A stretch of 64,000 nucleotides of DNA, taken from a virus. The first letter of the stretch is position 1. Every line of letters begins with the position of its first letter. Location: positions 44,019 to 108,018 of IMG/VR virus record IMGVR_UViG_3300019776_000564; one strand, given 5' to 3'. Below, piece after piece: positions 535 to 45,989 of the stretch. Made by a program: the position numbers and the translations under genes. The notes under the pieces were generated by a model. That model saw nothing but the letters and a program-made list of their open reading frames with translations. It had not been told where the DNA came from and ran no database searches.

Positions 535-611
535 TGCGGGTTAGCTCAGACGGTCAGAGCGGCGGACTCATAATCCACAGGTCACTGGTTCAAATCCAGT
601 ACCCGCATCCA
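535..611 (+). tRNA. tRNA with CAU anticodon (Met, or Ile2 if modified)
   Basis: Acceptor arms TGCGGGT and ACCCGCA pair over 7 bp. There is a normal D arm (AGCTCAG...GAGC), a CTCATAA anticodon loop, a T arm with loop TTCAAAT and an encoded CCA (609-611). One C-A mismatch sits in the anticodon stem. CAU could mean elongator Met or lysidine-modified Ile2; sequence alone does not decide. Confidence 0.9.
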
Positions 612-617
612 GTTTCT

Positions 618-693
618 TGGGGTATAGCTCAGTTGGTAGAGCAAACGGCTGTTAACCGTTAGGTCACTGGTTCGAGTCCAGTTTCCCCAGCCA
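618..693 (+). tRNA. tRNA-Asn (GUU)
   Basis: Acceptor arms TGGGGTA and TTCCCCA pair with one T-T mismatch. The anticodon loop is CTGTTAA, the T stem is ACTGG/CCAGT, the discriminator is G and CCA is encoded. It follows the CAU tRNA by 6 nt and is probably cotranscribed with it. Confidence 0.93.
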
Positions 694-696
694 AAA

Positions 697-790
697 GCGA
701 GAATCTCGGTGTAATCCTCAGAAAGGTCTGTTGATTCACAGCGAGAGTCGAGAAATCAACCGGCGTGGTGCCGCCGTTCTCGCAGCACCA
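697..790 (+). ncRNA. tRNA-sized structured element, not a canonical tRNA
   Basis: It lies between tRNA-Asn and tRNA-Tyr. GCGAGAA (697-703) pairs perfectly with TTCTCGC (777-783) like a 7-bp acceptor stem, and CCA follows at 788-790, but five extra bases (AGCA plus spacing) separate stem and CCA. Inside are a 7-bp stem GTTGATT/AATCAAC (730-736 with 754-760) and a 5-bp stem CGGCG/CGCCG. There is no normal T loop (no TTCRA) and no clear anticodon arm. It could be a degenerate class II tRNA or another small RNA. Confidence 0.4.
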
Positions 791-797
791 AGATTTC

Positions 798-882
798 GTC
801 GTTTGATTCCACTCTGGGAAGTGGTAGGGGCTGTAACCCCCGAGTCGTTGACTGCGTGGTTCGATTCCATCAAACGGCACCA
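798..882 (+). tRNA. tRNA-Tyr (GUA), class II
   Basis: Acceptor arms GTCGTTT and AAACGGC pair over 7 bp with one G-T. The anticodon loop CTGTAAC gives GUA. A long variable arm (CGAGTCGTTGACTGCG region) is as expected for Tyr, with a TTCGATT T loop and encoded CCA (880-882). The D arm (TTCC...GGAA) is unusual and the T stem has a mismatch, so the gene is somewhat degenerate. Confidence 0.82.
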
Positions 883-887
883 AATAT

Positions 888-964
888 TGGTGATTAGCTC
901 AGTCGGATAGAGCATCCGCCTTCTAAGCGGATGGTCACAGGTTCAAGTCCTGTATCACCAACCA
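888..964 (+). tRNA. tRNA-Arg (UCU)
   Basis: Acceptor TGGTGAT/ATCACCA, anticodon stem CCGCC/GGCGG-type around loop CTTCTAA, T stem ACAGG/CCTGT with TTCAAGT loop, discriminator A and encoded CCA (962-964). It reads AGA, a codon used in these genes and often rare in hosts (the rarity is general knowledge). Confidence 0.95.
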
Positions 965-1013: not shown

Positions 1014-2708
1014 TTATATAGAGAGCTTTTTCAGACCAAAGGATTCAAAGTCGAACGACTTTACGATGTTCTCCCCAAATCCCGGCGTCTCCTGAATGAT
1101 TCTCAGGCACTCTCTGCTGTGACTGTTAGTGTGGTTGTTCCAGTTGTCGTTGAACATGACGACAAAGCACACGTTCGGGCCTGATTTTTTAGAGCGAAGA
1201 CCTCGACCGATTCTCTGGCGAACAGCCACTTCCGCTTTGCCGCCTCCAGCGAGAATAACCATCCCAACGGATGGAACGTCAACGCCGACATCAAGAATGG
1301 TTGTACCGATCAGAACATCAAGCTTGCCGGCTCCGAGCATATCCAGAGCTTTCTGACGTTCCTCCTGCGAGTCCTCACCTCTAATGAACTCAGCACGAAG
1401 ACCTGCCGCTTTGAGAAGATTCTTGAGGATGTCGCCGTGATCAGTGCGCTGGACAAGAATCATGGTGGTCAAACCATATTTCTTGGCCTCAATTGCGTGC
1501 TTCAGGATCTGGGTATTCCGACCCGGGTTCTTAACGATCCCGCGCTCGTAAGCTACAGGGAAAGCAGAGCCTCTGTTTACGCCCGCGCATGGAGTGCTAT
1601 CAACGAACTTGAAGTATGGCGTGGCGAGAATGCCCTTATCGATAAGCTCCTTCTCCGAGACTCGAATGCCGATCGTACCTGCGACGGCTGCCAATCTCAT
1701 GTTCGCTTCCTGCGAATCCTTCATGTTTGGGGTCGCAGTAAGTGCCAGGCGATAGTTGGCGTTCGTCATGGCATTACAGAGGTCGAAGAACCCGGTGCCG
1801 GATACTTCATGAGCCTCTTCGAGGGTCAGAAAGCCTATGCACTCAAGGAACTTAACCGTTTCGGCTCTTACCTTGGCTTTCTTGTCTGCCGTCGCTTGAG
1901 CCTTCGTTCTTACCTCGCGCTCATCAATGGCATACTTCTCGTTTACCTTTTTCTTGAGATATTCGATCTTGTCCAGAACGGATTTATCGGCTTTTCTCAG
2001 AAGGGCCGGGTTGACTGGAAGGTTTGCCTTTTTCAGAACCTCTTCGATCTTCTTATCCAGCATAGAAACATGCTTGTCCAAGAGTCGGTTTAGCTCGATC
2101 TCAAACGAGGACTCTTCCATTCTTGATACGAGGGTATCAACGATGGCGAAGTTCACGCCATTTGGTTGAGGGTTCCAGTGACCATCACCTAGAAAACCGA
2201 TCGGTCTAGATGATTTGACCGATTTGTACCCTTTAGCCATCTGGTACATAAGCGATTTTCGAGTGGTGATGAACAGTGTGGGTAGATTCAAGCGCTCACA
2301 GCACAATTTAAAGATCTCAGACTTACCCCCACCCGTTGCCACTTGCGCTGTCATGCGCTGTAGCTGCACCAGACGCTGCATCGTCTTCGTTTGATAGTCG
2401 TATCGCGGGTCAGCAGGGAAGTCGCTCACAACGGGCTGTAGAGGGCCGGCAGGGTCTGGAACGACTTTGCCTTTTACGATCACTCTGTAGCCATGTTTCT
2501 CCAGAGTATTTCTTACCAGTCTAACGAAGCCGGTAGGGAAGAAGTCTTTGCTCATATCGAACATTGAGCCATGAGCTACGCCCATGCCTTTGATACCACT
2601 CTCAATCTTGTAGGAGAGCAGTTCGTTCACGATAAGCCTTGCATTGCGATCTGGCTCGATCAGTCTCGCCCGCACAGCGTTGTGGACGATTTTCAAAGTT
2701 TTGGACAT
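1014..2708 (-). CDS. Superfamily II DNA helicase, UvsW/DEAD-like
   Basis: A 564-residue ATP-driven DNA helicase/translocase. A YQ just before the Walker A fits a Q-type motif, motif I is ATGGGKS (124-130), motif II is LEEAH (296-300, an EEAH variant of DEAH), motif III is TATP (324-327), then motif V GTTILDVGVDVPS and motif VI QRIGRGLR. T4 UvsW, which remodels branched DNA and R-loops, is the closest familiar phage protein. A charged helical insertion of roughly 90 residues lies between motifs I and II (about 200-290). The start at 2708 is supported by GGAAG 6 nt upstream. It is transcribed against the rest of the window, apart from the SLOG-like gene. Confidence 0.88.
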   Translation of the reverse strand: MSKTLKIVHNAVRARLIEPDRNARLIVNELLSYKIESGIKGMGVAHGSMFDMSKDFFPTGFVRLVRNTLEKHGYRVIVKGKVVPDPAGPLQPVVSDFPADPRYDYQTKTMQRLVQLQRMTAQVATGGGKSEIFKLCCERLNLPTLFITTRKSLMYQMAKGYKSVKSSRPIGFLGDGHWNPQPNGVNFAIVDTLVSRMEESSFEIELNRLLDKHVSMLDKKIEEVLKKANLPVNPALLRKADKSVLDKIEYLKKKVNEKYAIDEREVRTKAQATADKKAKVRAETVKFLECIGFLTLEEAHEVSGTGFFDLCNAMTNANYRLALTATPNMKDSQEANMRLAAVAGTIGIRVSEKELIDKGILATPYFKFVDSTPCAGVNRGSAFPVAYERGIVKNPGRNTQILKHAIEAKKYGLTTMILVQRTDHGDILKNLLKAAGLRAEFIRGEDSQEERQKALDMLGAGKLDVLIGTTILDVGVDVPSVGMVILAGGGKAEVAVRQRIGRGLRSKKSGPNVCFVVMFNDNWNNHTNSHSRECLRIIQETPGFGENIVKSFDFESFGLKKLSI

Positions 2709-2788: not shown

Positions 2789-3574
2789 ATGATTGACGAC
2801 GATTTCTCCGATCTTGACGACCTGGAAATGAACCTCAACGACCTCGCCGCTGTAAATGAGGCAATCGAAAAGGCCAAGATCGTACCTACAACAGAGATGG
2901 ACGTTGAGTATGCAAACCCTCACGACCTTCTACCGAACCCCTGGAATCCAAACTCTGTAGACCCGGTAAACCAAGCAAAGCTTGAGAACTCCATCAAGCG
3001 TGATGGCATCAAGCGCCCTATCGTTGTTCGTCAGCTTGATAACGGCGATTTCCAGATCATCGGCGGTCAGCACCGAACAGAAGCAGCTATTGAGCTTGGC
3101 ATGAAGAAAGTGCCAATCATCAACAGAGGCAAGATCAGCGATGCAGAGGCGAAGAAAGAAACGCTTCTGGACAACTATCGATACGGCTCAGACAACCTTG
3201 ATCGACTGTCCGCCCTTCTGAGTGACCCTGAGATTGGCGACGCCGCTACCCTGCTCGACACTATGCCTATCGATGAAGAGGAACTGGCCGAATACTTCAG
3301 CCACGTAACCTCTGAAAACATAGATATGGAGATCGAAGACGCTTTGGATGACGGCACAAAATCGGACGATGAAGACGACGATGTTGTAGATTTGAGTACC
3401 GGCAAGCCTCTGAGAACTCACCAGATTATTCGGTTCCGCGTTTCAATCGAAGATCAGACAAAACTGGCTGAACTGCTGAAGAAGGTAAAGATTGACGAGG
3501 GCTATGTGACCTCAGACGACCTTACCAATGATGGTGACGCTTTGATTCACATGCTGAGAGATCAGTTTGAATGA
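2789..3574 (+). CDS. ParB/Srx-fold protein 1 of the ParB-ABC-GNAT cluster
   Basis: 261 residues. A ParB N-terminal domain spans about 38-150: a PNPWNPN strand-turn near 49-55, an SIKRDGIKRPIVV segment and the diagnostic IIGGQHRTEAA (90-100), matching the G-x-H/R-R core of ParB nuclease-like domains. The N-terminal 30 residues are very acidic (DDDFSDLDDLEMNLNDL). A separate C-terminal domain (about 200-261) is linked by an Asp-rich stretch. ParB-fold proteins act as nucleases, CTP switches or DNA-site readers; which applies here is unknown. It is the first gene of a tightly overlapping rightward operon and overlaps the next gene by ATGA. Confidence 0.8.
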   Translation: MIDDDFSDLDDLEMNLNDLAAVNEAIEKAKIVPTTEMDVEYANPHDLLPNPWNPNSVDPVNQAKLENSIKRDGIKRPIVVRQLDNGDFQIIGGQHRTEAAIELGMKKVPIINRGKISDAEAKKETLLDNYRYGSDNLDRLSALLSDPEIGDAATLLDTMPIDEEELAEYFSHVTSENIDMEIEDALDDGTKSDDEDDDVVDLSTGKPLRTHQIIRFRVSIEDQTKLAELLKKVKIDEGYVTSDDLTNDGDALIHMLRDQFE

Positions 3575-3738
3575 CCAATCAAAGCGAAAAGAACTCGGTA
3601 GAAGAAAGAATACGCCGGCGAGAAATTATCGAAAAGGCGGCTCAGAAAGCCAGAGAAAAAGAAGAACGAAGACCGATGAACCCGGACTACGACTTCTCCT
3701 GGGAAAACACCAATTTCGAGAGAAACGACTATGACTGA
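3571..3738 (+). CDS. Small charged protein between the two ParB genes
   Basis: 55 residues, starting in an ATGA overlap with ParB 1 and ending inside the start of ParB 2. It has a strongly charged helix (EERIRRREIIEKAAQKAREK) and an aromatic acidic tail (PDYDFSWENTNF). No family recognised. Its fixed position and overlaps on both sides support a real gene, perhaps a linker or partner of the ParB proteins. Confidence 0.6.
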   Translation: MTNQSEKNSVEERIRRREIIEKAAQKAREKEERRPMNPDYDFSWENTNFERNDYD

Positions 3739-4423
3739 AGCCTACCAAAAGAAAGACGAGATCTGGTCTATTGACCGCCTTGTCCCTTATGCAATGAACA
3801 GCAAGAAGCACGACCCTAAACAGGTCGCTAAAATTGCTGCGTCCATCAGCAAGCACGGGTGGACTACAAGGATCATCGTTGAGCCGGATGGGACGATCAT
3901 TGCGGGCCATGGTCGACGACTAGCGGCAATCGATCTGATGCAGGAGAAGGTTCCAGTTACAGTCCTTCACGGTATCAGCAAGGAGCAAGCAAAAGCTCTG
4001 CGGATCATCGACAACAAGACGAACGAAGGTGGTCACGACACTGCGATCCTCAGTCAGGAGCTTAAAGAGCTTATTCTGGAAGATGGCATTGATATGAGTG
4101 ACTTCTTCGATGTCCGGGATCTGAGCTTCGCCATTGAAGATCTTGGCGAACTGGATATGGAAAGTCTCAGTCCTGATATCACACCAGAAGTTGCTGAGCA
4201 AACCACCAGAACCGAGCAGCAAATCGAAGAGACTGATGAGAACGAGGTTAGCCTTACAAAGGCAATCGGCATCAGCAGAATCAGTGGTTCGCAGGCGAGA
4301 GAAATGAAGCGCTATGTCGGCTTTGCTCAGGACTACTACAACTGCGACCCAGCAGAAGCGATGCTGAGAGCGTTGGAAGACTGGTATAGCGGCAATAAGC
4401 TGGATGAGGATGACTGCAAATGA
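3731..4423 (+). CDS. ParB-fold protein 2 of the ParB-ABC-GNAT cluster
   Basis: 230 residues. The ParB domain is at the N-terminus (12-110): WSIDRLVPYAMNSKKH, then ISKHGWTTRIIVEPDG and the core IIAGHGRRLAA (56-66), followed by VPVTVL. This version (GHGRR) is closer to the ParB domains seen in prophage ParB/methyltransferase proteins than ParB 1 (GGQHR). The middle is Glu-rich and the C-terminal 55 residues form a separate helical segment (SQAREMKRYVGFAQDYY). It overlaps its neighbours on both sides, implying coupled expression with the ABC ATPase. Confidence 0.82.
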   Translation: MTEAYQKKDEIWSIDRLVPYAMNSKKHDPKQVAKIAASISKHGWTTRIIVEPDGTIIAGHGRRLAAIDLMQEKVPVTVLHGISKEQAKALRIIDNKTNEGGHDTAILSQELKELILEDGIDMSDFFDVRDLSFAIEDLGELDMESLSPDITPEVAEQTTRTEQQIEETDENEVSLTKAIGISRISGSQAREMKRYVGFAQDYYNCDPAEAMLRALEDWYSGNKLDEDDCK

Positions 4424-5055
4424 CCACATATACAGTAAACAAGTCCTTTTCCAGCAACGTTGTTCGTAGCCGGCGTGTCCTTGAGGTTGCAGAAGGCTTT
4501 GGTCTTGGCCTTGAGGACAAGGACTTTACCGTATACAAGGACTTCAAGATCGATGTCAGTCAGGGTGATGTTGTGTATATCACAGGGCAGTCTGGTTCGG
4601 GTAAGTCTCTCCTGCTTAAGGAGCTTGCAAAGCAGATCTCCGAAGAGCAGTCGGTAGCAGATATCGACCTCGTTAAGTACCAAGAGATCCCTTTGATTGA
4701 CCAAATCGGTTCGAGCACCGATGAAGCCATTCAAATCCTCAGCCTAGCCGGCCTGAACGACGCATACCTGCTTGTTCGTAAGCCAAGCGAGTTGTCTGAC
4801 GGGCAGCGCTATCGCTTCCGTATCGCGCTCCTGATGCAGTCAGGTTGCAAGGTCTGGATTGCAGATGAATTTGGCGCTGTTCTCGACCGTGTAACCGCTA
4901 AGGTTGTGGCTTTTAACCTTCGCAAGCAGGCTGCAAAGGTTGGGGCTACAGTGATCGTTGCTACCACACACAAAGACCTCAGAGACGAGCTTGCGCCCAC
5001 TATCTATGTGGACAAACGTTTCAAGGACAAAATCAACGTTGAGGTGGCGGAATGA
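4420..5055 (+). CDS. ABC-type ATPase resembling the ATPase half of COG2401
   Basis: A 211-residue soluble ABC ATPase with no membrane segment. Walker A GQSGSGKS (56-63), Q-loop IDQIG (Q95), signature LSDGQ (125-129) in PSELSDGQRYRFRIAL, Walker B with catalytic Glu VWIADEF (145-151), D-loop LDR and H-loop ATTH (H184). The signature block, the LAGLNDAYLL segment and the end IVATTHKDLRDEL closely match my memory of COG2401, the ABC ATPase fused to a predicted acetyltransferase in archaea and some bacteria. Here the acetyltransferase half is a separate gene at 6085. It starts in an ATGA overlap with ParB 2. Confidence 0.85.
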   Translation: MTTYTVNKSFSSNVVRSRRVLEVAEGFGLGLEDKDFTVYKDFKIDVSQGDVVYITGQSGSGKSLLLKELAKQISEEQSVADIDLVKYQEIPLIDQIGSSTDEAIQILSLAGLNDAYLLVRKPSELSDGQRYRFRIALLMQSGCKVWIADEFGAVLDRVTAKVVAFNLRKQAAKVGATVIVATTHKDLRDELAPTIYVDKRFKDKINVEVAE

Positions 5056-5405
5056 AATTTCGCAAAAAGCCTGTTGTGATTGAAGCAACTCAGTGGTTCA
5101 AGAACGGCGATCACCCGCTTGATCATGACCCTATCGGAATCGCCAACCCGTCAAGCGTGGACTTGGCTAAGTACGACGAATACAAGCAGTTTGAAGGCAA
5201 GGTTGTTCGCTATTTCAGAGATCCATATACCGCTGGCAGCAGCATTTGTAAGCACTGCGGTGAAACCATGCACAATCATGGTTGGATCGATACTTTGGAA
5301 GGCGGTCACATCGTCTGCCCGGGTGACTGGATCATCACCGGAGTAGCGAACGAAAAATACCCGTGCAAACCTGACATTTTTGAAGCCACATACGAGAAGG
5401 TATGA
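5052..5405 (+). CDS. Conserved phage protein with small Zn-site insertion
   Basis: 117 residues. The ends (MKFRKKPVVIEATQW and PGDWIITGV...CKPDIFEATYE) are typical of a small protein found widely in tailed phages; no function is established that I know of. A C-x2-C...H-x-H cluster in the middle (ICKHCGETMHNHG, about 58-70) looks like an inserted zinc site. It overlaps the ABC gene by ATGA, so it belongs to the same operon, but its family is not specific to this cluster. Confidence 0.75.
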   Translation: MKFRKKPVVIEATQWFKNGDHPLDHDPIGIANPSSVDLAKYDEYKQFEGKVVRYFRDPYTAGSSICKHCGETMHNHGWIDTLEGGHIVCPGDWIITGVANEKYPCKPDIFEATYEKV

Positions 5406-5407
5406 TC

Positions 5408-5686
5408 ATGAAGCACGAAAAATTCGCAATCTGGCTGTCCGGGTTTACCGATCTGAACATGGGCAATGTGCCAACAAAAGAACAGTGGGATCTGATCACT
5501 GAAAGGCTGGCGGAATGCTTTGACGAAGTTCAGGAGCTTTCCGTAAAGCAGCAGTACCGTTCTCCAACCTATGGGTTATTTGCAGGTCAACCTTCTGACG
5601 CTCTCTTGAGAGCTACCTCAGTGGCTGATGCGATTTCACTGGCTGCATCAACTGCCTCTGCTGTCACAAATACTGCCAAACGATAG
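5408..5686 (+). CDS. Hypothetical protein, last gene of first accessory operon
   Basis: 92 residues from the ATG at 5408. GAGAAGG lies 7 nt upstream, a better fit than the ATG at 5402, which sits only 1 nt from it. The N-terminal half is helical and acidic (KEQWDLITERLAECFDEVQ); the C-terminus is an Ala/Ser-rich helix (DAISLAASTASAVTNTA). No family recognised. A terminator follows 25 nt downstream. Confidence 0.65.
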   Translation: MKHEKFAIWLSGFTDLNMGNVPTKEQWDLITERLAECFDEVQELSVKQQYRSPTYGLFAGQPSDALLRATSVADAISLAASTASAVTNTAKR

Positions 5687-5711
5687 GCAAAACTTACACA
5701 AAGCCTAATCA

Positions 5712-5739
5712 AAAAGGTACTCTTTACAGAGTACCTTTT
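5712..5739 (+). terminator. Rho-independent terminator inside the accessory cluster
   Basis: AAAAGGTACTCT and AGAGTACCTTTT form a 12-bp stem with a TTAC loop. It separates the ParB-ABC operon from the GNAT operon. ACTTACACAAAGC just before it is shared with the region upstream of the leftward gene at 372. Confidence 0.8.
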
Positions 5740-5759
5740 CCGTATCTGGAGCAGAGCAA

Positions 5760-6098
5760 ATGTCAGAACTAATCAAAGTGGATTTCAAGGAACGCAAGGT
5801 TGTCAATCGAGTAGACCTTGAAGCTCCGGTGCCGGAGTGGTCTGCTAAGAAAGATCCATACTTCAAGGGTTTCATTGAAGGCATCATCCTTAGCGCAGAA
5901 GAAATGCACAAAAGCGGTGGTGATTGGCGTCGAATGGTCATCGTGCTTCAGGATGAAACGTCTTTAGAGGGCGATGTGTGCATTACTCTTTGGGACAAGA
6001 ACGTTGTTACGGATGAGCAGGCTTCGGATATTCTGATGATTGCCTGTAACAAGATCGACATCAGAGCGGAGGAGAAAGCCTCATATGAAGAATCCTGA
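5760..6098 (+). CDS. Hypothetical protein upstream of GNAT
   Basis: 112 residues. GGAG lies 8 nt before the ATG. Beta-rich start (LIKVDFKERKVVNRVDLEAPVPEW) and alternating strands and helices; the segment WRRMVIVLQDETSLEGDVCITLW looks like a compact alpha/beta domain. No family recognised. Its 3' end overlaps the GNAT gene by 14 nt and contains that gene's ribosome site, so the two are translationally linked. Confidence 0.65.
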   Translation: MSELIKVDFKERKVVNRVDLEAPVPEWSAKKDPYFKGFIEGIILSAEEMHKSGGDWRRMVIVLQDETSLEGDVCITLWDKNVVTDEQASDILMIACNKIDIRAEEKASYEES

Positions 6099-6966
6099 AT
6101 TTGAAACGGTAATCGAGCTTAACCCGTCCGCTAAACCAAGATTTTCCTTGCTTGATGGGATGCGAGTAGAGAGAGGAACAAAAGATGATTGGGCGATGCT
6201 TCATGACCTTCATTACAAGGCTGAGAACCTACCTGCCGGCCCTCGTTTTTGGCGCTGCGTCACTGCTGATGGCGACCTCGTTGGTATCGTTGTGCTTAGC
6301 ACCGTCAGCCTACTACTCGCCCCGCGTCATCAGGTATTCCCGAAGCTCAAACCTGGCAAAGACAGCCATTTTACTAACGTCCACCGGGCCACGTTTCTAA
6401 ACGCGAACTTTAAGCGAGCAGCAAGGATCGTTACGGACACGATGTACCGCGGTATTGGTGTTGCATACAGAATGGTAAACCTTGCCATGAGGATGGAAGG
6501 GATGAGGTTCATCGAGATTCAATCCTCGATGTCCAAGTTCAACCCATTCGATGTAAAGGCCGGGTTCAAGCACGCTCACCTGAAACCAGCGGCAGCTTAT
6601 GAGCAGGGTCTGAAATTCATGCGATCCCAGTTCAAAGCTCACCCTGCGGATCATCAAGCGATCATGACCGAGCTTAATAGCTTCAGTCCTGCTCACCAGA
6701 AGCGTGTGATGACAGCCATGCAAGAGTTCTATTACCGCCACAGCGCGCGTGAGAAGACAGGGAGCAACCTCAATGCGGGTACGAGTAAAGTACAAGCGAT
6801 GGCCGCCCCACACCTTCTCAGGGAGCTTCAGCAGCTTGTGTTCGCGAGTCCAGTTTATGGGATCTGGGAGAACCCGGATCTAGGTAAAGAAATTCCACAA
6901 TCGCTTCCACTCCGGGCTTTTGATTTGCAAGGCCCGAATCAACCACTGAGGTTAGATCTGCTATGA
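6085..6966 (+). CDS. GNAT-fold protein resembling the acyltransferase half of COG2401 / Mom-like
   Basis: 293 residues from ATG 6085, chosen because GGAGGAGAAA precedes it. Features: DWAMLHDLHYKAENLP (35-50), DGDLVGIVVLSTVS (63-74), the acyl-CoA loop YRGIGVA (121-127) after a RIVTDTM strand, and RFIEIQSSMSKFNPFDVKAGF (141-161). The motif E-x5-M-x-[KR]-[FY]-NPF-x3-AG[MF] closely matches the COG2401 acyltransferase domain, which is in turn related to the GNAT-fold DNA-modifying Mom protein of phage Mu (family knowledge). About 130 C-terminal residues have no recognised domain. Inference: it acylates DNA or a small molecule together with the ABC ATPase at 4420. Confidence 0.78.
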   Translation: MKNPEFETVIELNPSAKPRFSLLDGMRVERGTKDDWAMLHDLHYKAENLPAGPRFWRCVTADGDLVGIVVLSTVSLLLAPRHQVFPKLKPGKDSHFTNVHRATFLNANFKRAARIVTDTMYRGIGVAYRMVNLAMRMEGMRFIEIQSSMSKFNPFDVKAGFKHAHLKPAAAYEQGLKFMRSQFKAHPADHQAIMTELNSFSPAHQKRVMTAMQEFYYRHSAREKTGSNLNAGTSKVQAMAAPHLLRELQQLVFASPVYGIWENPDLGKEIPQSLPLRAFDLQGPNQPLRLDLL

Positions 6967-7304
6967 AACCGTTGACCACAAAACAGCGTCACCTGATTAA
7001 AGTGATCGTCATGGGGAACCTTGATGTATCGGGGAACCGGATCTCGAATGTGGATATCTATCAGATCCAATCGAGGGTTCCGTATCAGACAACCCGGGAG
7101 TCACTGATGTGCAGCCTACCTATCCTTGAGAAGCAGGGATGGATAGTGAAGGCAGGTAAAGATAACCGGGACGGTAGAATGAAGCAGACCTGGGAACCAA
7201 CAGCTTTAGCTATCCGGGTTGTTAATCCATCTCCAGTTTCTAAGGAACCGGAGTATGTAGAGATCGATGGGGATGATGATGTGGTTTTGTTGGAACTGAC
7301 TTGA
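6963..7304 (+). CDS. Small winged-helix-like protein
   Basis: 113 residues with a wHTH-like layout: TKQRHLIKVI helix, ISNVDIYQIQSRV, recognition helix TTRESLMCSLPILEKQGWI, then a beta hairpin with basic residues (KAGKDNRDGRMKQTW). The C-terminus is acidic. It overlaps the GNAT stop codon by ATGA and is the last gene before the terminase promoter region, so a regulator of the cluster or of late genes is possible (inference). Confidence 0.6.
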   Translation: MKPLTTKQRHLIKVIVMGNLDVSGNRISNVDIYQIQSRVPYQTTRESLMCSLPILEKQGWIVKAGKDNRDGRMKQTWEPTALAIRVVNPSPVSKEPEYVEIDGDDDVVLLELT

Positions 7305-7311
7305 TCCGGGT

Positions 7312-7381
7312 GCCTGCTTTCCCTTTATTAAGCTTGTTCTTTTAAGCTTGTATCTTACAAGTTGTTAAAAGGGACAAGCAG
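7312..7381 (+). repeat. Hairpin element A at the left border of the late block
   Basis: A 70-nt imperfect inverted repeat. The arms CTGCTT-CCCTTT-TTAA at the left pair with TTAA-AAAGGG-AAGCAG at the right with short bulges, and the centre contains CTTACAAG. Element B at 35896-35959 shares the outer CCTGC...TTCCCTT.ATTAA sequence and the central CTTACAAG. A perfect TATAAT (7382-7387) follows directly. Confidence 0.6.
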
Positions 7382-7387
7382 TATAAT
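7382..7387 (+). promoter_or_regulatory. TATAAT box before the terminase genes
   Basis: A consensus -10 hexamer immediately after hairpin element A; no good -35 is seen at 16-18 nt, so it may need an activator or the hairpin region. A perfect TTGACA at 7467-7472 lacks a good -10 (TCCAAT). The remaining 7388-7520 stretch has short palindromes (GGATC..GATCC, ACTTAAGT) but no gene. Confidence 0.4.
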
Positions 7388-7520
7388 CTTACAGAGCAAG
7401 GGCTAAAGCAATAGGTACTTGAAATAAAGTCTGAATCCCGACGAAATACCTGCAAATGGCTCTCATTTGACAATTCCGGGATCGGCTGATCCAATGATGG
7501 CCATTACTTAAGTGATCCAT

Positions 7521-7554
7521 TAGGCAGAGAGCCATACCCTCTGCCTACCTTTTT
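7521..7554 (+). terminator. Terminator or attenuator just upstream of small terminase
   Basis: TAGGCAGAG (7521-7529) pairs with CTCTGCCTA (7539-7547), followed by CCTTTTT. It lies a few nt before the first terminase codon, so any upstream transcript would be attenuated. Confidence 0.55.
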
Positions 7555-7557
7555 GCG

Positions 7558-8280
7558 ATGGATACCATGACAGAAAACACAGAAAAACCTGCATCCGGCG
7601 TTGATGATGACGAAAAGTCCAAACGCCTGACGCCTCGCGAATACGCCAGAGCCAAGCAAATGTGGCAGTCCGGCGATTACAGCCTCAAGGAAATCTCCGA
7701 CACCGTTGGCGTAAGTGCCACTGCTCTCAGTCGCCGGTTTAAGCGAGACAGCGTTTCCAAAGGCTCTGATGCCAAAAAGGTTTCGGCCGCAGTCAAGCGC
7801 GCCATCGAAAAGACCAGTGCGGCTCAGGCTGAAGAACTGGCTTCTACGGCGCACGACATCAAAATGTTGGCTCTGAAATCAATCGAGCTATTCAACAAGA
7901 AGAACTATGCGGACGTAGTTGCCTGTATTAAGGCGAATCGACCATTGGCCGAAATTCAGGGCGACTTGAAAGCTTTGAAAATCGCCTCTGAAATCGTCAG
8001 CATGAACTACGGCACCGGTGCCAGGATTCTGGGTCTCGACCAAGACCTCAATTCTGACGACCAACTGCCGGAACTCGTCATTAACCTGATGACCGAGAAT
8101 GATGTCGCCGAGCTTCGTGAGCAGCAGCGCCGTGAAGAGTTGGAGGCAAACGGTGAAATTGATGACGATGACCTGCTCGGTACAGAGCTAAGCTCGGACG
8201 ATCTTGATGCACTTGATGCGGCGCTTGACGAGGACGATGACGACATTGTTGTCGAAGGCGACGACCCGGCGGTGACCTAA
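7558..8280 (+). CDS. terS: Terminase small subunit
   Basis: 240 residues (231 if the ATG at 7567 is used; neither start has a strong ribosome site). An HTH is at about 28-65 (QMWQSGDYSLKEISDTVGVS and ALSRRFKRD), followed by a helical middle and a very acidic tail (DDDDLLGTELSSDDLDALD region). It recognises phage DNA ends or pac/cos sites and regulates the large subunit. It overlaps the large terminase by 1 nt (TAATG). Confidence 0.82.
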   Translation: MDTMTENTEKPASGVDDDEKSKRLTPREYARAKQMWQSGDYSLKEISDTVGVSATALSRRFKRDSVSKGSDAKKVSAAVKRAIEKTSAAQAEELASTAHDIKMLALKSIELFNKKNYADVVACIKANRPLAEIQGDLKALKIASEIVSMNYGTGARILGLDQDLNSDDQLPELVINLMTENDVAELREQQRREELEANGEIDDDDLLGTELSSDDLDALDAALDEDDDDIVVEGDDPAVT

Positions 8281-9548
8281 TGAAGATCACTAACGCCTCG
8301 CCTCAGTTAACACCTCTTGCGCTGAAGATCGGTCTTCATCCAAAGCAAGCAGAGGTGTTCCTTGATACGACTCGATTTCGAGTCGTAGTTGCCGGCCGTC
8401 GTTGGGGTAAAACTGCCCTAGCTAAGACGGAGATGATTCAACGAGCCAAGATACCCGGTCAAAAGATTTGGTACATCGCCCCGACATACCGGATGGCGAA
8501 GCAAATCATGTGGAACGACCTTAAAGCCTCTATCCCTCGAAAGTGGATTATTCGAGAGCATGAGACTGAAATGTCCATTACGCTCCGAAATGGCTCGATC
8601 ATCGAATGCAAGGGCGCAGATAACCCTGACACTCTTCGAGGCGTTGGTCTTAACTTCGTGGTAATGGACGAGTTCCAGGACATCCGTCCTGACACTTGGA
8701 CTACGATTATCCGTCCTACTTTGGCTAAAGACCGCGGTGAAGCTCTATTCATCGGTACGCCAAAGGCTTACAACCAGTTGTATGAGGTTTATCAGTTCGG
8801 ACAAGACCCTGCTCGCAAGGCATGGTCTAGCTATCAGTTCCCAACCATCACCTCACCTTTCATCCCTGAGACGGAGATCATCGAAGCTCGCAGGGATATG
8901 GACCCTCGGACATTCAGACAGGAGTTTGAGGCGTCCTTTGAAACTATGAGTGGTCGAGTCTACTACCCGTTCGATCGTCGCGAGCATTGCAGCACAGACA
9001 TCAAGTTCAACCCGGGTCGACCTATCTATGTTGGCGTGGACTTTAACATTGACCCAATGTCCGCTTGCATTATGCAGCCCCAAACAAACGGCGAACTCTG
9101 GGTGGTTGATGAGATCTTCCTTCATAACTCCAACACCCTTGAGGTTTGTGAGGAACTGGAGAGAAGGTATTGGCGATATATGAGCCAGATCACAATCTTC
9201 CCTGACCCGGCCGGCGCTGCACGTCAGCACGCTCGCGGTGAATCTGACCTTGAGATCTTCAGGCAGAAAGGATTCAATCGGATTAAGTTCCGCAGAAAGC
9301 ACCCGCTTATTGCAGACCGTGTTAACAGCGTTAACCGTTTATTAAAGGACGCATCCGGCAAAATCACCCTTAAGGTGAATACTGGATGTACAAACGTAGT
9401 CCAGTCTCTTGAGCAAACCCTGTACAAGGCAGGCAGTCGAGATATCGATAAGGCCGCAAGTATGGAGCACATCACTGACGCTATGGGCTACTGCATTGAA
9501 CTGGAACATCCGGTCAAAAAAGTTGTTATCGTCGGACACTCTCTATAA
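8280..9548 (+). CDS. terL: Terminase large subunit (ATPase-nuclease)
   Basis: 422 residues; powers DNA packaging and cuts the concatemer. Walker A GRRWGKT (39-45), Walker B with catalytic Glu FVVMDEF (126-132), coupling segment FIGTPKAYNQLY, then an RNase H-like nuclease with IYVGVDFNIDP (D254) and VVDEIF (D277/E278) and later PDPAGAA. Full length for the family. Directly preceded by terS and followed by the portal, the usual order. Confidence 0.95.
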   Translation: MKITNASPQLTPLALKIGLHPKQAEVFLDTTRFRVVVAGRRWGKTALAKTEMIQRAKIPGQKIWYIAPTYRMAKQIMWNDLKASIPRKWIIREHETEMSITLRNGSIIECKGADNPDTLRGVGLNFVVMDEFQDIRPDTWTTIIRPTLAKDRGEALFIGTPKAYNQLYEVYQFGQDPARKAWSSYQFPTITSPFIPETEIIEARRDMDPRTFRQEFEASFETMSGRVYYPFDRREHCSTDIKFNPGRPIYVGVDFNIDPMSACIMQPQTNGELWVVDEIFLHNSNTLEVCEELERRYWRYMSQITIFPDPAGAARQHARGESDLEIFRQKGFNRIKFRRKHPLIADRVNSVNRLLKDASGKITLKVNTGCTNVVQSLEQTLYKAGSRDIDKAASMEHITDAMGYCIELEHPVKKVVIVGHSL

Positions 9549-9554
9549 ACGCTT

Positions 9555-9587
9555 GCACTATGGTAAATAAGTCATTTACCATAGTGC
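9555..9587. promoter_or_regulatory. 14-bp inverted repeat between terminase and portal
   Basis: GCACTATGGTAAAT (9555-9568) and ATTTACCATAGTGC (9574-9587) are perfectly complementary around AAGTC. No T tract follows, so it is more like an operator or mRNA processing hairpin than a terminator. CGCTTGCACTAT at its left edge recurs as CGCTTGTACTAT at 41519-41530. Confidence 0.55.
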
Positions 9588-9608
9588 CATTCAAATGTGG
9601 ATACGCCC

Positions 9609-11198
9609 ATGCCAGTTGACAGTAAGACCGCCAAGGCGATAGTTGAGAGAAAGCACCCTCTTTACGAAGAGCTTGTGCCTCACTGGGATTTCCTTGAGGC
9701 CAGTTACAGGGGTGGGCGTGGGTGGTTCAAGAACAACATCTTCCGCTACATCAAGGAAGGTGATCGCGAGTACAAGGATCGCGTAGAGCGAGCCTATCGA
9801 TTCAACCATACTCGCGAAACAGTTGATCTGGTCAATAAATATCTTTTCCGAGCACCTATTGCCCGAAACTTTGATGATGCTCCCGAGAGCGTCAGAGAGT
9901 TCTGGAATGATGTGGACGAAACCGGCCTCAGCATTGACGAGTTCATGCGGATCGTTTCGCTCAAGCAATCCATTTTCGGCAGACCTTGGATCGTAATCGA
10001 TAACAGAGTTACCGATATCCCTGAGAACGCCAGCAAAGCTGACACCAAAGGTGTTGATCTTTACGCCTATATGGTTCCGCCTCAGCAGGTTCCAGACTAC
10101 GCTTTCGATGAGTGTGGTGAACTGTTGTGGGTATTGATCGAGGAGCACATCCGAGACGACCAAGACCCTATTAACGGCACAGGTGACGTTTTCAAGAGAT
10201 ATCGCTTGTGGACTCGCACTGACTGGATGCTGTTTGAGTTCAAGAAGGGTTCCGGCAAGTCTGGCGGTAGATGGGAACAGGTCGACGAAGGTCGCCATGA
10301 TCTCGGTCTTGTTCCAGCCATTCCCGCAAACAACAGCGTAATCAACGATAAGTGGGACTGCCCGGCTCTGATTGCTGAGGTTGCCTACCTAGATCGCGCA
10401 GTCTCCAACTACGCGAGTAACCTTGATGCCATCATTCAAGACCAGTCGTTCTCACAGCTTGCGATGCCGGCTCAGGGCGTATTACCTGGCGATGACGCTT
10501 ACAACAAGGTTCTCGAAATGGGGACTAAACGAGTGTTTCTGTATGACGGAGAAGCTGGAGCCGCTCCACAGTTCCTCTCTCCTGATCCGAGTCAGGCATC
10601 GCTTATCCTTTCTGCCATTGGTCAATTGATCAACGAGATCTACCATTCGGTTGGTCTTGCAGGTGAAAGAACAAAGCAGGACAACAGCAAGGGTATCGAT
10701 AACAGTTCCGGCGTTGCTAAGGCTGTGGACTTTGAAAGGGTAGTTGCATTACTCTCGTCCAAAGCAGATGCTTTGGAAGTTATCGAAGCCAAGATGCTGA
10801 AAATTATTTGTGCGTGGTCTGGTGAAGAACTGCCAGATGATGTAGAACTTGTTACCTACCCAGTAGAGAGCCAGTTTGACGTTCGCACTCTGTACGACGA
10901 GATCGATATTGGCATGAAGCTTCGTCTTATGGGCTTGCCGCCAATGATCCTCGAAGAGCAAGTAAATCGCCTTGTAACTAAACTCTTCCCGGGTCTAGGT
11001 GAAAAGGTGATTGAATCGATCAAAGCAGAAGTTAAGCAATGGGCAAATGAGCCACCACCGGGAGAGACTCCGGCTGGCAACAAACCCGGAAGCGACGCTG
11101 CCGCTAAGGTCGTAGAGGAAGCAAAGCGCAATCGCGCAGCGGCCTCTGAAAAGAAAACCGCCACACAAAGCCGAGAGACTGGCAAAACCAACGGCTAA
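9609..11198 (+). CDS. Portal protein
   Basis: 529 residues from ATG 9609 (a GTG at 9597 would add four). It forms the dodecameric DNA entry channel. The N-terminus HPLYEELVPHWDFLEASYRGG, then RAYRFNHTRETVDLVNKYLF and later SPDPSQASLILSAIGQLINEIYHSVG follow the layout of siphovirus portals. The C-terminal 50 residues are Ala/Lys/Glu-rich, as is usual inside the head. Position after terL and before scaffold and capsid supports the call. Confidence 0.85.
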   Translation: MPVDSKTAKAIVERKHPLYEELVPHWDFLEASYRGGRGWFKNNIFRYIKEGDREYKDRVERAYRFNHTRETVDLVNKYLFRAPIARNFDDAPESVREFWNDVDETGLSIDEFMRIVSLKQSIFGRPWIVIDNRVTDIPENASKADTKGVDLYAYMVPPQQVPDYAFDECGELLWVLIEEHIRDDQDPINGTGDVFKRYRLWTRTDWMLFEFKKGSGKSGGRWEQVDEGRHDLGLVPAIPANNSVINDKWDCPALIAEVAYLDRAVSNYASNLDAIIQDQSFSQLAMPAQGVLPGDDAYNKVLEMGTKRVFLYDGEAGAAPQFLSPDPSQASLILSAIGQLINEIYHSVGLAGERTKQDNSKGIDNSSGVAKAVDFERVVALLSSKADALEVIEAKMLKIICAWSGEELPDDVELVTYPVESQFDVRTLYDEIDIGMKLRLMGLPPMILEEQVNRLVTKLFPGLGEKVIESIKAEVKQWANEPPPGETPAGNKPGSDAAAKVVEEAKRNRAAASEKKTATQSRETGKTNG

Positions 11199-43910: not shown

Positions 43911-45989
43911 ATGGATCGCATTCAACGCATTGCCATTATGAGAGAGGCGATTACCAAAATCGCCCAGATCCTCTCTGACGGCAAAGTTCTCGTAACTCAG
44001 TCAGGTGTTAAGGCGTTCGTTAAGTACGACGAGCGCACTATGAAAGCAACTCGCGTCAACTTGCCAATGATCCCGGATGACGCAAGTGACGAACTGATTG
44101 AAGCTGTTCAGGGCTTTCTTGACAGCGAGATCTCCAAAGTCCTCTATGCGGACGGCAAGTCCAACCTGCGTGCTGCGCACGAAAACATGGCCTCGCTGTA
44201 CAACCCGCTTGAGTCCTTCTTTTGCGAGAAGGAAATGGTCAAGAACTTCCAGGGTTCTCGCCATAACCTCGCAAACATGCACCAGACTTTCGTGGACAAG
44301 TTCATCACGCCACGACTGAAAGAAGCTCTCGCTAATGGCGCAGAAGAGCAAGAGCTTTTCCAAGTTCTCGCAGTTCCCGCATTGCGAGCGTGGGGCGGCC
44401 AAAAGTTCTTCCAAGACTACATGAGCGATAAGTGGTCTCTGATCGCCGGCATTCAGAAGCAGCTTGATCCGATTGCCAAGAAAATGCAGACCATGACCAA
44501 AGCGTCTGACTGCTATGACATGGCGAAGCAGATTCGCAATGTCGTAATGGGTGAGCCGCCTGAAGGTGATGGTGACAACCCGTTCGGTGATGAAGATCCG
44601 AGCAAGAAAGGTGGCGGTGGCGGTAAAGGTAGCAGCGGTAAAGGTGGCAAGGGTGGTAAAGGCGCCCCTCCACCAAAAGCTAACAAGGGCAAAGGTGCAG
44701 GTGAACTAGGCGACGAAGAAGAGTCTGAAGAAGACGAGGACGAAGAGTCTTCGGGTGGCCCGGGCGAGAAGTCTGAAGAAGACGCAGACGCAGAAGACGG
44801 CTCCGGCGTCGAAGATGATGACGACCTGGAAGAAGACGAGGAAGGTGAAGACGGCGAAAAGCCCGACCCTCGTAAAGAAGACGCCCAATCCGGTGCCGAC
44901 GGTCAGTCCAATCAGCAAGAGCGTGAGAAAGGTACTGAAGATACCGAGTCCGCTCAAGCCGATTACGGCGGCGCGAACTTCATGAAGGACTTCGACTGGG
45001 ACAAGGTTCAGGACATCGGCACTGAATTTGGTCAGTACGTTACCGATCTGTGCTCGACAGAAATGGATAACGAGGACTACACGGTCTTTACTCGCGAGTG
45101 GGATCAGCTTGAGCCTCCAAAAATCCCATCGAGCTACAGTCCGAAGTGGCTCGATGACCTCGAAAAGTCAATCGCTGGTATGGTTGGCCCTGTTGCGCGT
45201 CAGCTTGAGCGTGCTTTTGCCGCACGTAACAAGTCTCTGACTCAGCAAGGTCTTCGTAAAGGCAAGCTGTCTTCCAACAATCTGTATCGTCTGACCGCTG
45301 GTGACGATCACATTTACAAGAACAAGATTGAGCACAAGACCCGAGAAATTGCTGTGTCTCTGGTCATCGACTGCTCCGGCTCTATGGGTGGTTCCAAGAT
45401 CCATACTGCAATGTGCTCAGCGTGGGTGCTTGCTGATGTTCTCGGTCGACTCGGCGTCGATTGCGAGATCATGGGCTTCACTACTGGCGACCTGTACGCT
45501 CAGCGGTCTAAAGACCTGTACAAAGAAATGTGCGACGCAAGTAATGCCGGCCGTGAGTTCGACCGCTGTGAGCCGTTGCGACTTCCTCTCTTCAAGAGCT
45601 TCCAAGAGAAGTTCTCGATTGAGGTCAAGAAGCGAATGGCGAGTTACGCTCACGTTCAGTCTTCTATGGCGAGCAACATTGACGGCGAGTCCGTTCAATA
45701 CGCCTATGAGTCTCTGTGTCGCCATGCAAACAAGGGTAAGCGTAAAGGCAAGATGATGATCGTCTTCAGCGACGGTCAACCTGCAGGCGGCGTAGACAGT
45801 CGTAAGCTGAACGCCCACTTGAAGGCTGTGGTGAATCGAATCGAGAAGGACGGCACTAACATTGTTGGTGTAGGCATTATGTCCAACTCTGTCCAGCATT
45901 TTTACCGCAAGAACGTCAAGCTGGATAACGTTGCTGAGCTGCCGGGCATCGTCCTCAAGCAACTCCGGGACGCTCTGCTTTCCGCTTAA
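43911..45989 (+). CDS. CobT-like VWA-domain protein
   Basis: 692 residues from ATG 43911 (a TTG at 43902 would add three). N-terminal helical domain, then a Gly/Lys and Asp/Glu-rich linker (about 225-340), and a C-terminal VWA domain with the MIDAS motif DCSGSMGGSK and later SDGQPAGG. CobT is one subunit of aerobic cobaltochelatase, but phage copies paired with a CobS-like AAA+ occur without other cobalamin genes and are thought to form a MoxR/VWA-type remodelling complex. The partner is at 46085. Confidence 0.87.
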   Translation: MDRIQRIAIMREAITKIAQILSDGKVLVTQSGVKAFVKYDERTMKATRVNLPMIPDDASDELIEAVQGFLDSEISKVLYADGKSNLRAAHENMASLYNPLESFFCEKEMVKNFQGSRHNLANMHQTFVDKFITPRLKEALANGAEEQELFQVLAVPALRAWGGQKFFQDYMSDKWSLIAGIQKQLDPIAKKMQTMTKASDCYDMAKQIRNVVMGEPPEGDGDNPFGDEDPSKKGGGGGKGSSGKGGKGGKGAPPPKANKGKGAGELGDEEESEEDEDEESSGGPGEKSEEDADAEDGSGVEDDDDLEEDEEGEDGEKPDPRKEDAQSGADGQSNQQEREKGTEDTESAQADYGGANFMKDFDWDKVQDIGTEFGQYVTDLCSTEMDNEDYTVFTREWDQLEPPKIPSSYSPKWLDDLEKSIAGMVGPVARQLERAFAARNKSLTQQGLRKGKLSSNNLYRLTAGDDHIYKNKIEHKTREIAVSLVIDCSGSMGGSKIHTAMCSAWVLADVLGRLGVDCEIMGFTTGDLYAQRSKDLYKEMCDASNAGREFDRCEPLRLPLFKSFQEKFSIEVKKRMASYAHVQSSMASNIDGESVQYAYESLCRHANKGKRKGKMMIVFSDGQPAGGVDSRKLNAHLKAVVNRIEKDGTNIVGVGIMSNSVQHFYRKNVKLDNVAELPGIVLKQLRDALLSA

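Follow-up and report, generated by a model that had tools for sequence, protein, structure and literature searches.

Acyl modification of DNA by a GNAT-fold acyltransferase acting with an ABC ATPase was reportedly predicted in 2013 by Iyer et al. (Aravind's group), and the prediction was restated in 2021. That restatement, PMC7824862, recalls its authors' earlier prediction that a GNAT working together with an ABC ATPase places an uncharacterised acyl modification on a DNA base, and gives Tenacibaculum phage pT24 as the example. Other described proteins that come close are the COG2401-type fusions, which carry an ABC ATPase and a GNAT on one chain, Mom of phage Mu, and a bacterial ParB-acetyltransferase fusion reported as the sole GTP-specific binder of a fold that binds CTP, ATP or GTP (PMC12704722). 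Here we analyse a 64,000-nucleotide stretch of a 108-kb viral contig (IMG/VR record IMGVR_UViG_3300019776_000564, positions 44,019 to 108,018; hereafter the window) from a relative of Pseudomonas phage nickie (large terminase, TerL, 95% identical by tblastn), in which two ParB-fold genes, an ABC ATPase gene and a GNAT gene lie upstream of the genes for a putative small terminase (TerS) and TerL.

The initial annotation of this locus had read the ABC ATPase and the GNAT as two halves of a COG2401-type protein, and full-length profile matches to archaeal fusions bear this out. Searching with the split-GNAT profile brings up fused ABC-GNAT proteins in one Bathyarchaeota genome (E 1e-24) and one Chloroflexota genome (E 1e-23), and such fusions occur in 40 of the 250 genomes sampled from the archaeal phylum and in 2 of 251 from Chloroflexota. 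Against the archaeal fusions the ABC profile of the window lineage reaches E values of about 1e-57 to 1e-80 and the GNAT profile up to 3e-31 over profile positions 11-266; both domains of COG2401-type proteins are full-length homologues of the window proteins, C-terminal extension included. Invariant GNAT residues in the alignment are HY, R114, R122, G125, M149 and F155. HY, RxxGxG and M-x-K-F/Y-N-P-F-x3-A-G recur in the window GNAT and the archaeal proteins alike, as does the C-terminal stretch, and the motifs DEFxxxLDRxxAK and MxKYNPFxxKAG are common to the COG2401 type and the window family. The COG2401 name itself rests on depositors' annotations and on architecture; in GenBank the GNATs of Klebsiella and Escherichia phages are called 'ABC-type ATPase fused to a predicted acyltransferase'. 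Unlike these one-protein fusions, the window encodes the two domains in separate genes 1 kb apart (4420-5055 and 6085-6966), with two ParB genes in addition, and we therefore file it as a split form of the COG2401 type, in which the ABC protein corresponds to the N-terminal half and the GNAT to the other.

A related family of fused proteins, phrog_11143, occurs in Leptospira phages LE3 and LE4 and in Gordonia, Vibrio (VmeM-32), Pseudoalteromonas (SL25) and Tenacibaculum (pT24) phages, the last being matched by the fused family at E 3e-41. Its ABC part matches the window family at E 1e-15 to 1e-21 and its GNAT part at 97% in profile-profile comparison (E 1e-10), often with ParB upstream and TerL downstream, as in the window; it differs in being one polypeptide, in a shorter GNAT without the C-terminal extension of the split family, and in usually having one ParB. 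In pT24 (L354, 2884-4056) the ABC-GNAT is annotated as gp38 plus gp37 with the break inside the GNAT, which could be a frameshift or an error. One 753-aa Chloroflexota protein (L210, 1093-3351) reverses the domain order, a GNAT-like region at 132-308 preceding the ABC at 415-620. An apparent archaeal 'fusion' of 832-929 aa (L228) was rejected as an artefact of stop-to-stop reading, its extra N-terminal stretch overlapping the terminase frame.

The split module is a stable unit. The four genes, whose co-occurrence the initial annotation had named as a point to check, are found together and in the order ParB1-ParB2-ABC-GNAT on one strand in each of the 60 IMG/VR loci that extend 4 kb or more upstream of the GNAT gene, and GNAT carriers are exactly the 30 phage records with a TerL of at least 55% identity, more distant terminase relatives (below 55%) being without it. 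Compared with nickie, dN/dS is 0.09 for ParB2, 0.06 for ABC and 0.07 for GNAT, dS being near saturation; all four genes are intact, these three are under purifying selection, and the gene set goes beyond chance. Matches to the GNAT extend to 905 plasmid records in PLSDB, the SSU5-like members being phage-plasmids. The annotated relatives compared (nickie, Rhizobium phages RHEph10 and X66, Stenotrophomonas phage BUCTxx99, Klebsiella phage ST13-OXA48phi12.3, and the Aeromonas and Acinetobacter phage-plasmids) have a divergent helicase followed by ParB, ParB, ABC, GNAT, a small open reading frame (ORF), TerS, TerL and portal genes; the SSU5 record stops just past the small ORF. That ORF, of phrog_900, is retained after the GNAT gene in most of the lineage, down to SSU5, and is possibly a further component of the module, and the helicase lies to the left in each complete locus looked at. 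The interval between ABC and GNAT is a variable cargo spot (L036, 6504-6926; L035, 6540-6998), holding a thioredoxin-like gene in Acinetobacter, a holin with three transmembrane segments in Aeromonas and DUF2829 in the Rhizobium phages.

That ParB belongs with ABC and GNAT is supported well outside this lineage. Scanning genomes with the ABC profile gave 80 loci from many phyla, most of them with a ParB-like ORF directly 5' of ABC-GNAT, and all three domains are joined in single ORFs of 646 aa in Bathyarchaeota (L179/L227; E 2e-11, 4e-74 and 3e-22 for ParB, ABC and GNAT) and 613 aa in a planctomycete of the Gemmataceae (L053; E 3e-8, 2e-20 and 8e-52). In Lactococcus phage P335 the order is Orf23 (ParB), Orf24 (ABC), Orf25 (GNAT), TerS, TerL, Orf23 matching the window ParB2 profile at E 1e-37, and a fused ABC-GNAT with an adjoining ParB-like gene and a terminase downstream is present in Leptospira LE4, Gordonia BiggityBass and Pseudoalteromonas SL25. 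Both window proteins have the ParB/Srx fold with a Box-II arginine: G93 and H95 are invariant in ParB1 and R96 is present in 22 of 24 sequences, and G59, H60, G61 and R62 of ParB2 are at least 95% conserved, the fold of ParB2 being called through phrog_930, as its match to PF02195 (E 0.006) falls below the cut-off. Neither has a Pfam match to a helix-turn-helix (HTH) DNA-binding domain, and no ParA was found in the window or in the SSU5 or nickie operon, so that the HTH and dedicated ParA of canonical ParB partition proteins are both missing; in the Rhizobium phages a ParA does lie near the module. The ParB-acetyltransferase fusion of PMC12704722 resembles the window set in coupling a ParB fold to an acetyltransferase and differs in being bacterial, with no ABC ATPase mentioned.

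The best evidence for DNA modification, indirect as it is, comes from an exchange with Mom. Porphyromonas phages 007a and 012a have tail genes 89-92% identical, then a differing slot, then a matching right end, and the slot holds a fused ABC-GNAT in 007a and a Mom (E 3.5e-27 to Mu Mom) in 012a. In a set of ten Porphyromonas phages whose tail regions are 83-92% identical or better, ABC-GNAT is present in five and Mom in four; one has neither and none has both. This phage clade has been described as transposable (PMC10367356), and 007a and 012a contain near the left end a 683-713-aa frame with a weak match to the C-terminal part of Mu transposase, six related contigs having similar matches. The slot occupies the position of mom in Mu and JD024, and in 51 of 80 IMG/VR fused loci the fused gene ends at most 2.5 kb from the stored end, mom's usual place in Mu-like phages. 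Mom shares with the window GNAT the GNAT superfamily and the HY motif, and differs in having no ABC partner and other core motifs. It can also pair with ParB: in Microbacterium phage Appa (L233, 4469-5621) a ParB-like gene overlaps the Mom gene, parallel to ParB-ABC-GNAT. The window GNAT was rejected as a member of the Mom family, having no Pfam Mom match; a Mom-like role is plausible and indirectly supported by the slot exchange, but the direct match to Mom that the initial annotation had looked to did not materialise. In some Porphyromonas phages an annotated phosphoribosylglycinamide formyltransferase gene (L032, 7442-7915) overlaps the end of the fused gene, and its product could be a source of the acyl group or alter it.

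The window ABC protein has Walker A, Q-loop, signature, Walker B with the catalytic glutamate, and H-loop. A Pfam search with the GNAT gave no match, and its identification, for which the initial annotation had YRGIGVA alone, is now backed by an AlphaFold2 model (pLDDT 88.9) whose best solved structures are N-acetyltransferases (E 3.6e-6, with modest TM-scores of 0.3-0.57), arylalkylamine and polyamine N-acetyltransferases leading; YRGIGVA, a conserved acyl-CoA motif of the form (R/Q)xxGxG/A, places it in the GNAT superfamily. The PHROGs label of its family phrog_886, 'ABC transporter ATP-binding subunit', is a misnomer, and a transporter reading was discarded, as the operon has no permease and the GNAT is not an ATPase. 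A fused ABC-GNAT protein was modelled at pLDDT 85.4, its ABC part closest to transporter nucleotide-binding domains (NBDs), TagH and SufC. The ten best fold matches of the GNAT include a NAT10-type RNA cytidine acetyltransferase. NAT10/TmcA resembles the window pair as a GNAT with an ATPase acting on a nucleobase, a mechanistic parallel only, and differs in its RecD-like helicase ATPase and RNA substrate; membership in that family was rejected (PF13718 unmatched, no PDB sequence match), which leaves a structural lead.

Taken together, we favour, with somewhat better than even confidence, a model where the four proteins work on DNA as a single machine, the split COG2401 form with its usual ParB partners, most likely acyl-marking bases of the phage genome late, near packaging. 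ParB1 and ParB2 would bind NTP and DNA and select the site or keep hold of it; the ABC ATPase, as an ATP-driven dimer, would open or deform the duplex or gate the enzyme; and the GNAT would move an acyl group from acyl-CoA onto the exocyclic amine of a base. The gain would be shielding from host restriction, as with Mom of phage Mu. We infer the DNA substrate, the acyl chemistry, the roles of ParB and ATP, the timing and the purpose; likewise, the ATP control, the reading or nicking of DNA by ParB and the marking before packaging that the initial annotation suggested may be entertained as conjecture. A more specific version we offer tentatively, as rather less probable: a nucleobase acyltransferase of wide distribution, dependent on ATP and differing from Mom in chemistry or target, in which a ParB-fold NTP switch and the ABC ATPase would deliver the GNAT to DNA, interchangeable with Mom in transposable phages, with a terminase link that extends from archaeal proviruses to enterobacterial phage-plasmids, and leaving a new mark just before packaging. 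Several observations weigh against base acylation. By hhalign the window GNAT family matches Mom (PF25680) at 2% probability, and the fused GNATs match it at 62% (E 7e-5), confined to the HY region. Aeromonas phage PX29 has both Mom and ABC-GNAT, so the two are not always exclusive, and the Mu-like right end can hold unrelated cargo, which makes the exchange suggestive rather than proof. The Porphyromonas-type fused genes have no ParB seen adjoining. NAT10 is one of several GNAT folds matched and not the best, and the ABC fold is like those of transporter NBDs and SufC rather than SMC or Rad50, and so does not point to a DNA clamp of the SMC type. A literature search found no experiment on a ParB-ABC-GNAT system and no nucleoside data; PMC11780129 (phage nick) and PMC3918226 (phage eta, no modified bases) both concern phages outside this lineage. 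Finally, terminase linkage fits a packaging role as well as it fits late modification.

This linkage is extensive. Of the 80 genome loci, 43 contain a TerL-like ORF, and in archaea ABC-GNAT genes lie directly 3' of the terminase gene (L230, 5010-6440 then 6440-7948; L215; L218), head to tail and overlapping or nearly so, the pair spanning 7313-10122 (minus strand) in L215 and 6749-9650 (minus strand) in L218. Pfam confirmed Terminase_6N in L215, L218, L221, L224 and L228, which speaks against profile drift as the source of the archaeal TerL matches. L218 has a tail-like gene nearby, and the flanks of L230 are cellular (PALP, glycosyltransferase family 3), so that some archaeal loci may be remnants or domesticated, L230 being a possible domesticated terminase-modifier pair. 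The position directly before TerS and TerL throughout the lineage and in many unrelated phages, together with the archaeal arrangement, would suit a packaging controller, in which the ParB proteins and the ABC ATPase are loaded onto phage DNA to steer or license the terminase, and the GNAT either is structural or has a protein as its acylation target (TerS, TerL, portal or a host factor). We nevertheless consider this unlikely: fused ABC-GNAT genes also occur far from the terminase, at the right end of transposable phages, in the tail region of Vibrio vB_VmeM-32 and in jumbo phage pT24; Mom, with which ABC-GNAT trades places, plays no part in packaging; and terminase adjacency may reflect late transcription only.

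GNATs act mostly on proteins and small amines, as the top folds matched here do, and the right-end slots of Mu-like phages house accessory genes; on these grounds the GNAT might instead serve anti-defence or host takeover, acylating a host protein, tRNA or small molecule with ParB and ABC as NTP-driven regulators. Such an account, which we rate as less probable still, leaves unexplained why the set is so closely tied to ParB proteins that bind DNA and to the terminase, and why ParB-ABC-GNAT fusions exist. Very improbable, in our view, is a phage-plasmid machine for partition or DNA condensation, with ParB, an SMC-like ABC ATPase and the GNAT as accessory. The ParB fold, the carriage of SSU5-like members as plasmids (the 905 PLSDB records) and the ParA of the Rhizobium phages point that way, but the same set occurs in Leptospira LE3 and LE4, described as lytic (PMC6078989), the set includes no ParA in the window, SSU5 or nickie, no C-terminal HTH was detected in ParB, and the ABC protein has no coiled coil and resembles transporter NBDs.

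The layout of the window locus is given in the table below. The gene positions, the ParB-fold pair and the ABC motifs of the initial annotation (GQSGSGKS, LSDGQ, ADEF, ATTH) are all present as it gave them; the range it drew around its genes leaves out equally conserved flanks (the helicase, the ORF at 6963-7304, the putative TerS and TerL). Its division into two adjacent operons is plausible: ATGA-type junctions join ParB1, the small ORF, ParB2, ABC and the ORF at 5052, and the hairpin at 5712-5739 favours it, but a scan of the locus for promoters and terminators gave nothing above chance. The 55-aa ORF at 3571-3738 is found in close relatives only. The helicase and ParB1 genes may share a control region. 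At the left edge of the window (535-964) are genes for tRNA-Met(cat), tRNA-Asn and tRNA-Arg, with a GC-rich hairpin near 970-995.

Table. Features of the ParB-ABC-GNAT locus and its flanks, in window coordinates.
Feature	Position	Strand	Details
ParB1, ParB/Srx-fold protein	2789-3574	+	261 aa; Box-II-like GGQHR; PF02195 E 1.2e-13; phrog_723 4.5e-58
Small charged ORF	3571-3738	+	55 aa; 12 K/R, 14 D/E; overlaps both neighbours
ParB2, ParB/Srx-fold protein	3731-4423	+	230 aa; GHGRR core; phrog_930 1.2e-78
ABC ATPase	4420-5055	+	211 aa; ABC_tran 7e-14; all NBD motifs
phrog_419-like ORF, function unassigned	5052-5405	+	ATGA overlap with ABC gene; place not conserved
94-aa ORF	5402-5686	+	found in close relatives only
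Perfect 12-bp inverted repeat, 4-nt loop	5712-5739	.	possible terminator between two gene groups
112-aa ORF	5760-6098	+	overlaps GNAT start; restricted to nickie-like phages
GNAT-fold acyltransferase	6085-6966	+	293 aa; C-terminal extension of ~110 aa; phrog_886 2.1e-125
113-aa ORF (phrog_900 2.9e-10)	6963-7304	+	after GNAT in most lineage loci
DNA-binding protein, putative small terminase (TerS)	7558-8280	+	phrog_867 1.6e-60; conserved position
Large terminase (TerL)	8280-9548	+	tblastn to annotated terminases; 95% to nickie
Divergent DEAD/DEAH helicase	1014-2708	-	constant left neighbour; annotated relatives, synteny

As a whole, the initial annotation holds in its observation, its COG2401 assignment and the co-occurrence of the genes, and fails in the direct Mom match and in the novelty of its hypothesis: what it offered as a candidate new system is not new as an idea, because Iyer et al., as cited in PMC7824862, had already predicted acyl modification of DNA by GNAT-ABC. 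Judged against the 2013 prediction in the form cited there, what appears new is the finding of a split form with two ParB proteins at the core of a whole lineage, along with the triple fusions, the swap with mom and the terminase operons of archaea. The system has been hidden by the PHROG labels 'ABC transporter ATP-binding subunit', 'DNA methyltransferase' and 'ABC iron siderophore transporter'. A prediction pending since 2013 can now be tested directly by routine nucleoside analysis, given the mom exchange, the triple fusions and the occurrence of the system in the well-known lactococcal phage P335. Should it prove right, an unrecognised DNA mark is carried by many phages and by hundreds of sequenced phage-plasmids (905 records in PLSDB, many of them from Klebsiella, Escherichia, Acinetobacter and Salmonella), and it would alter restriction, CRISPR and sequencing of those genomes.

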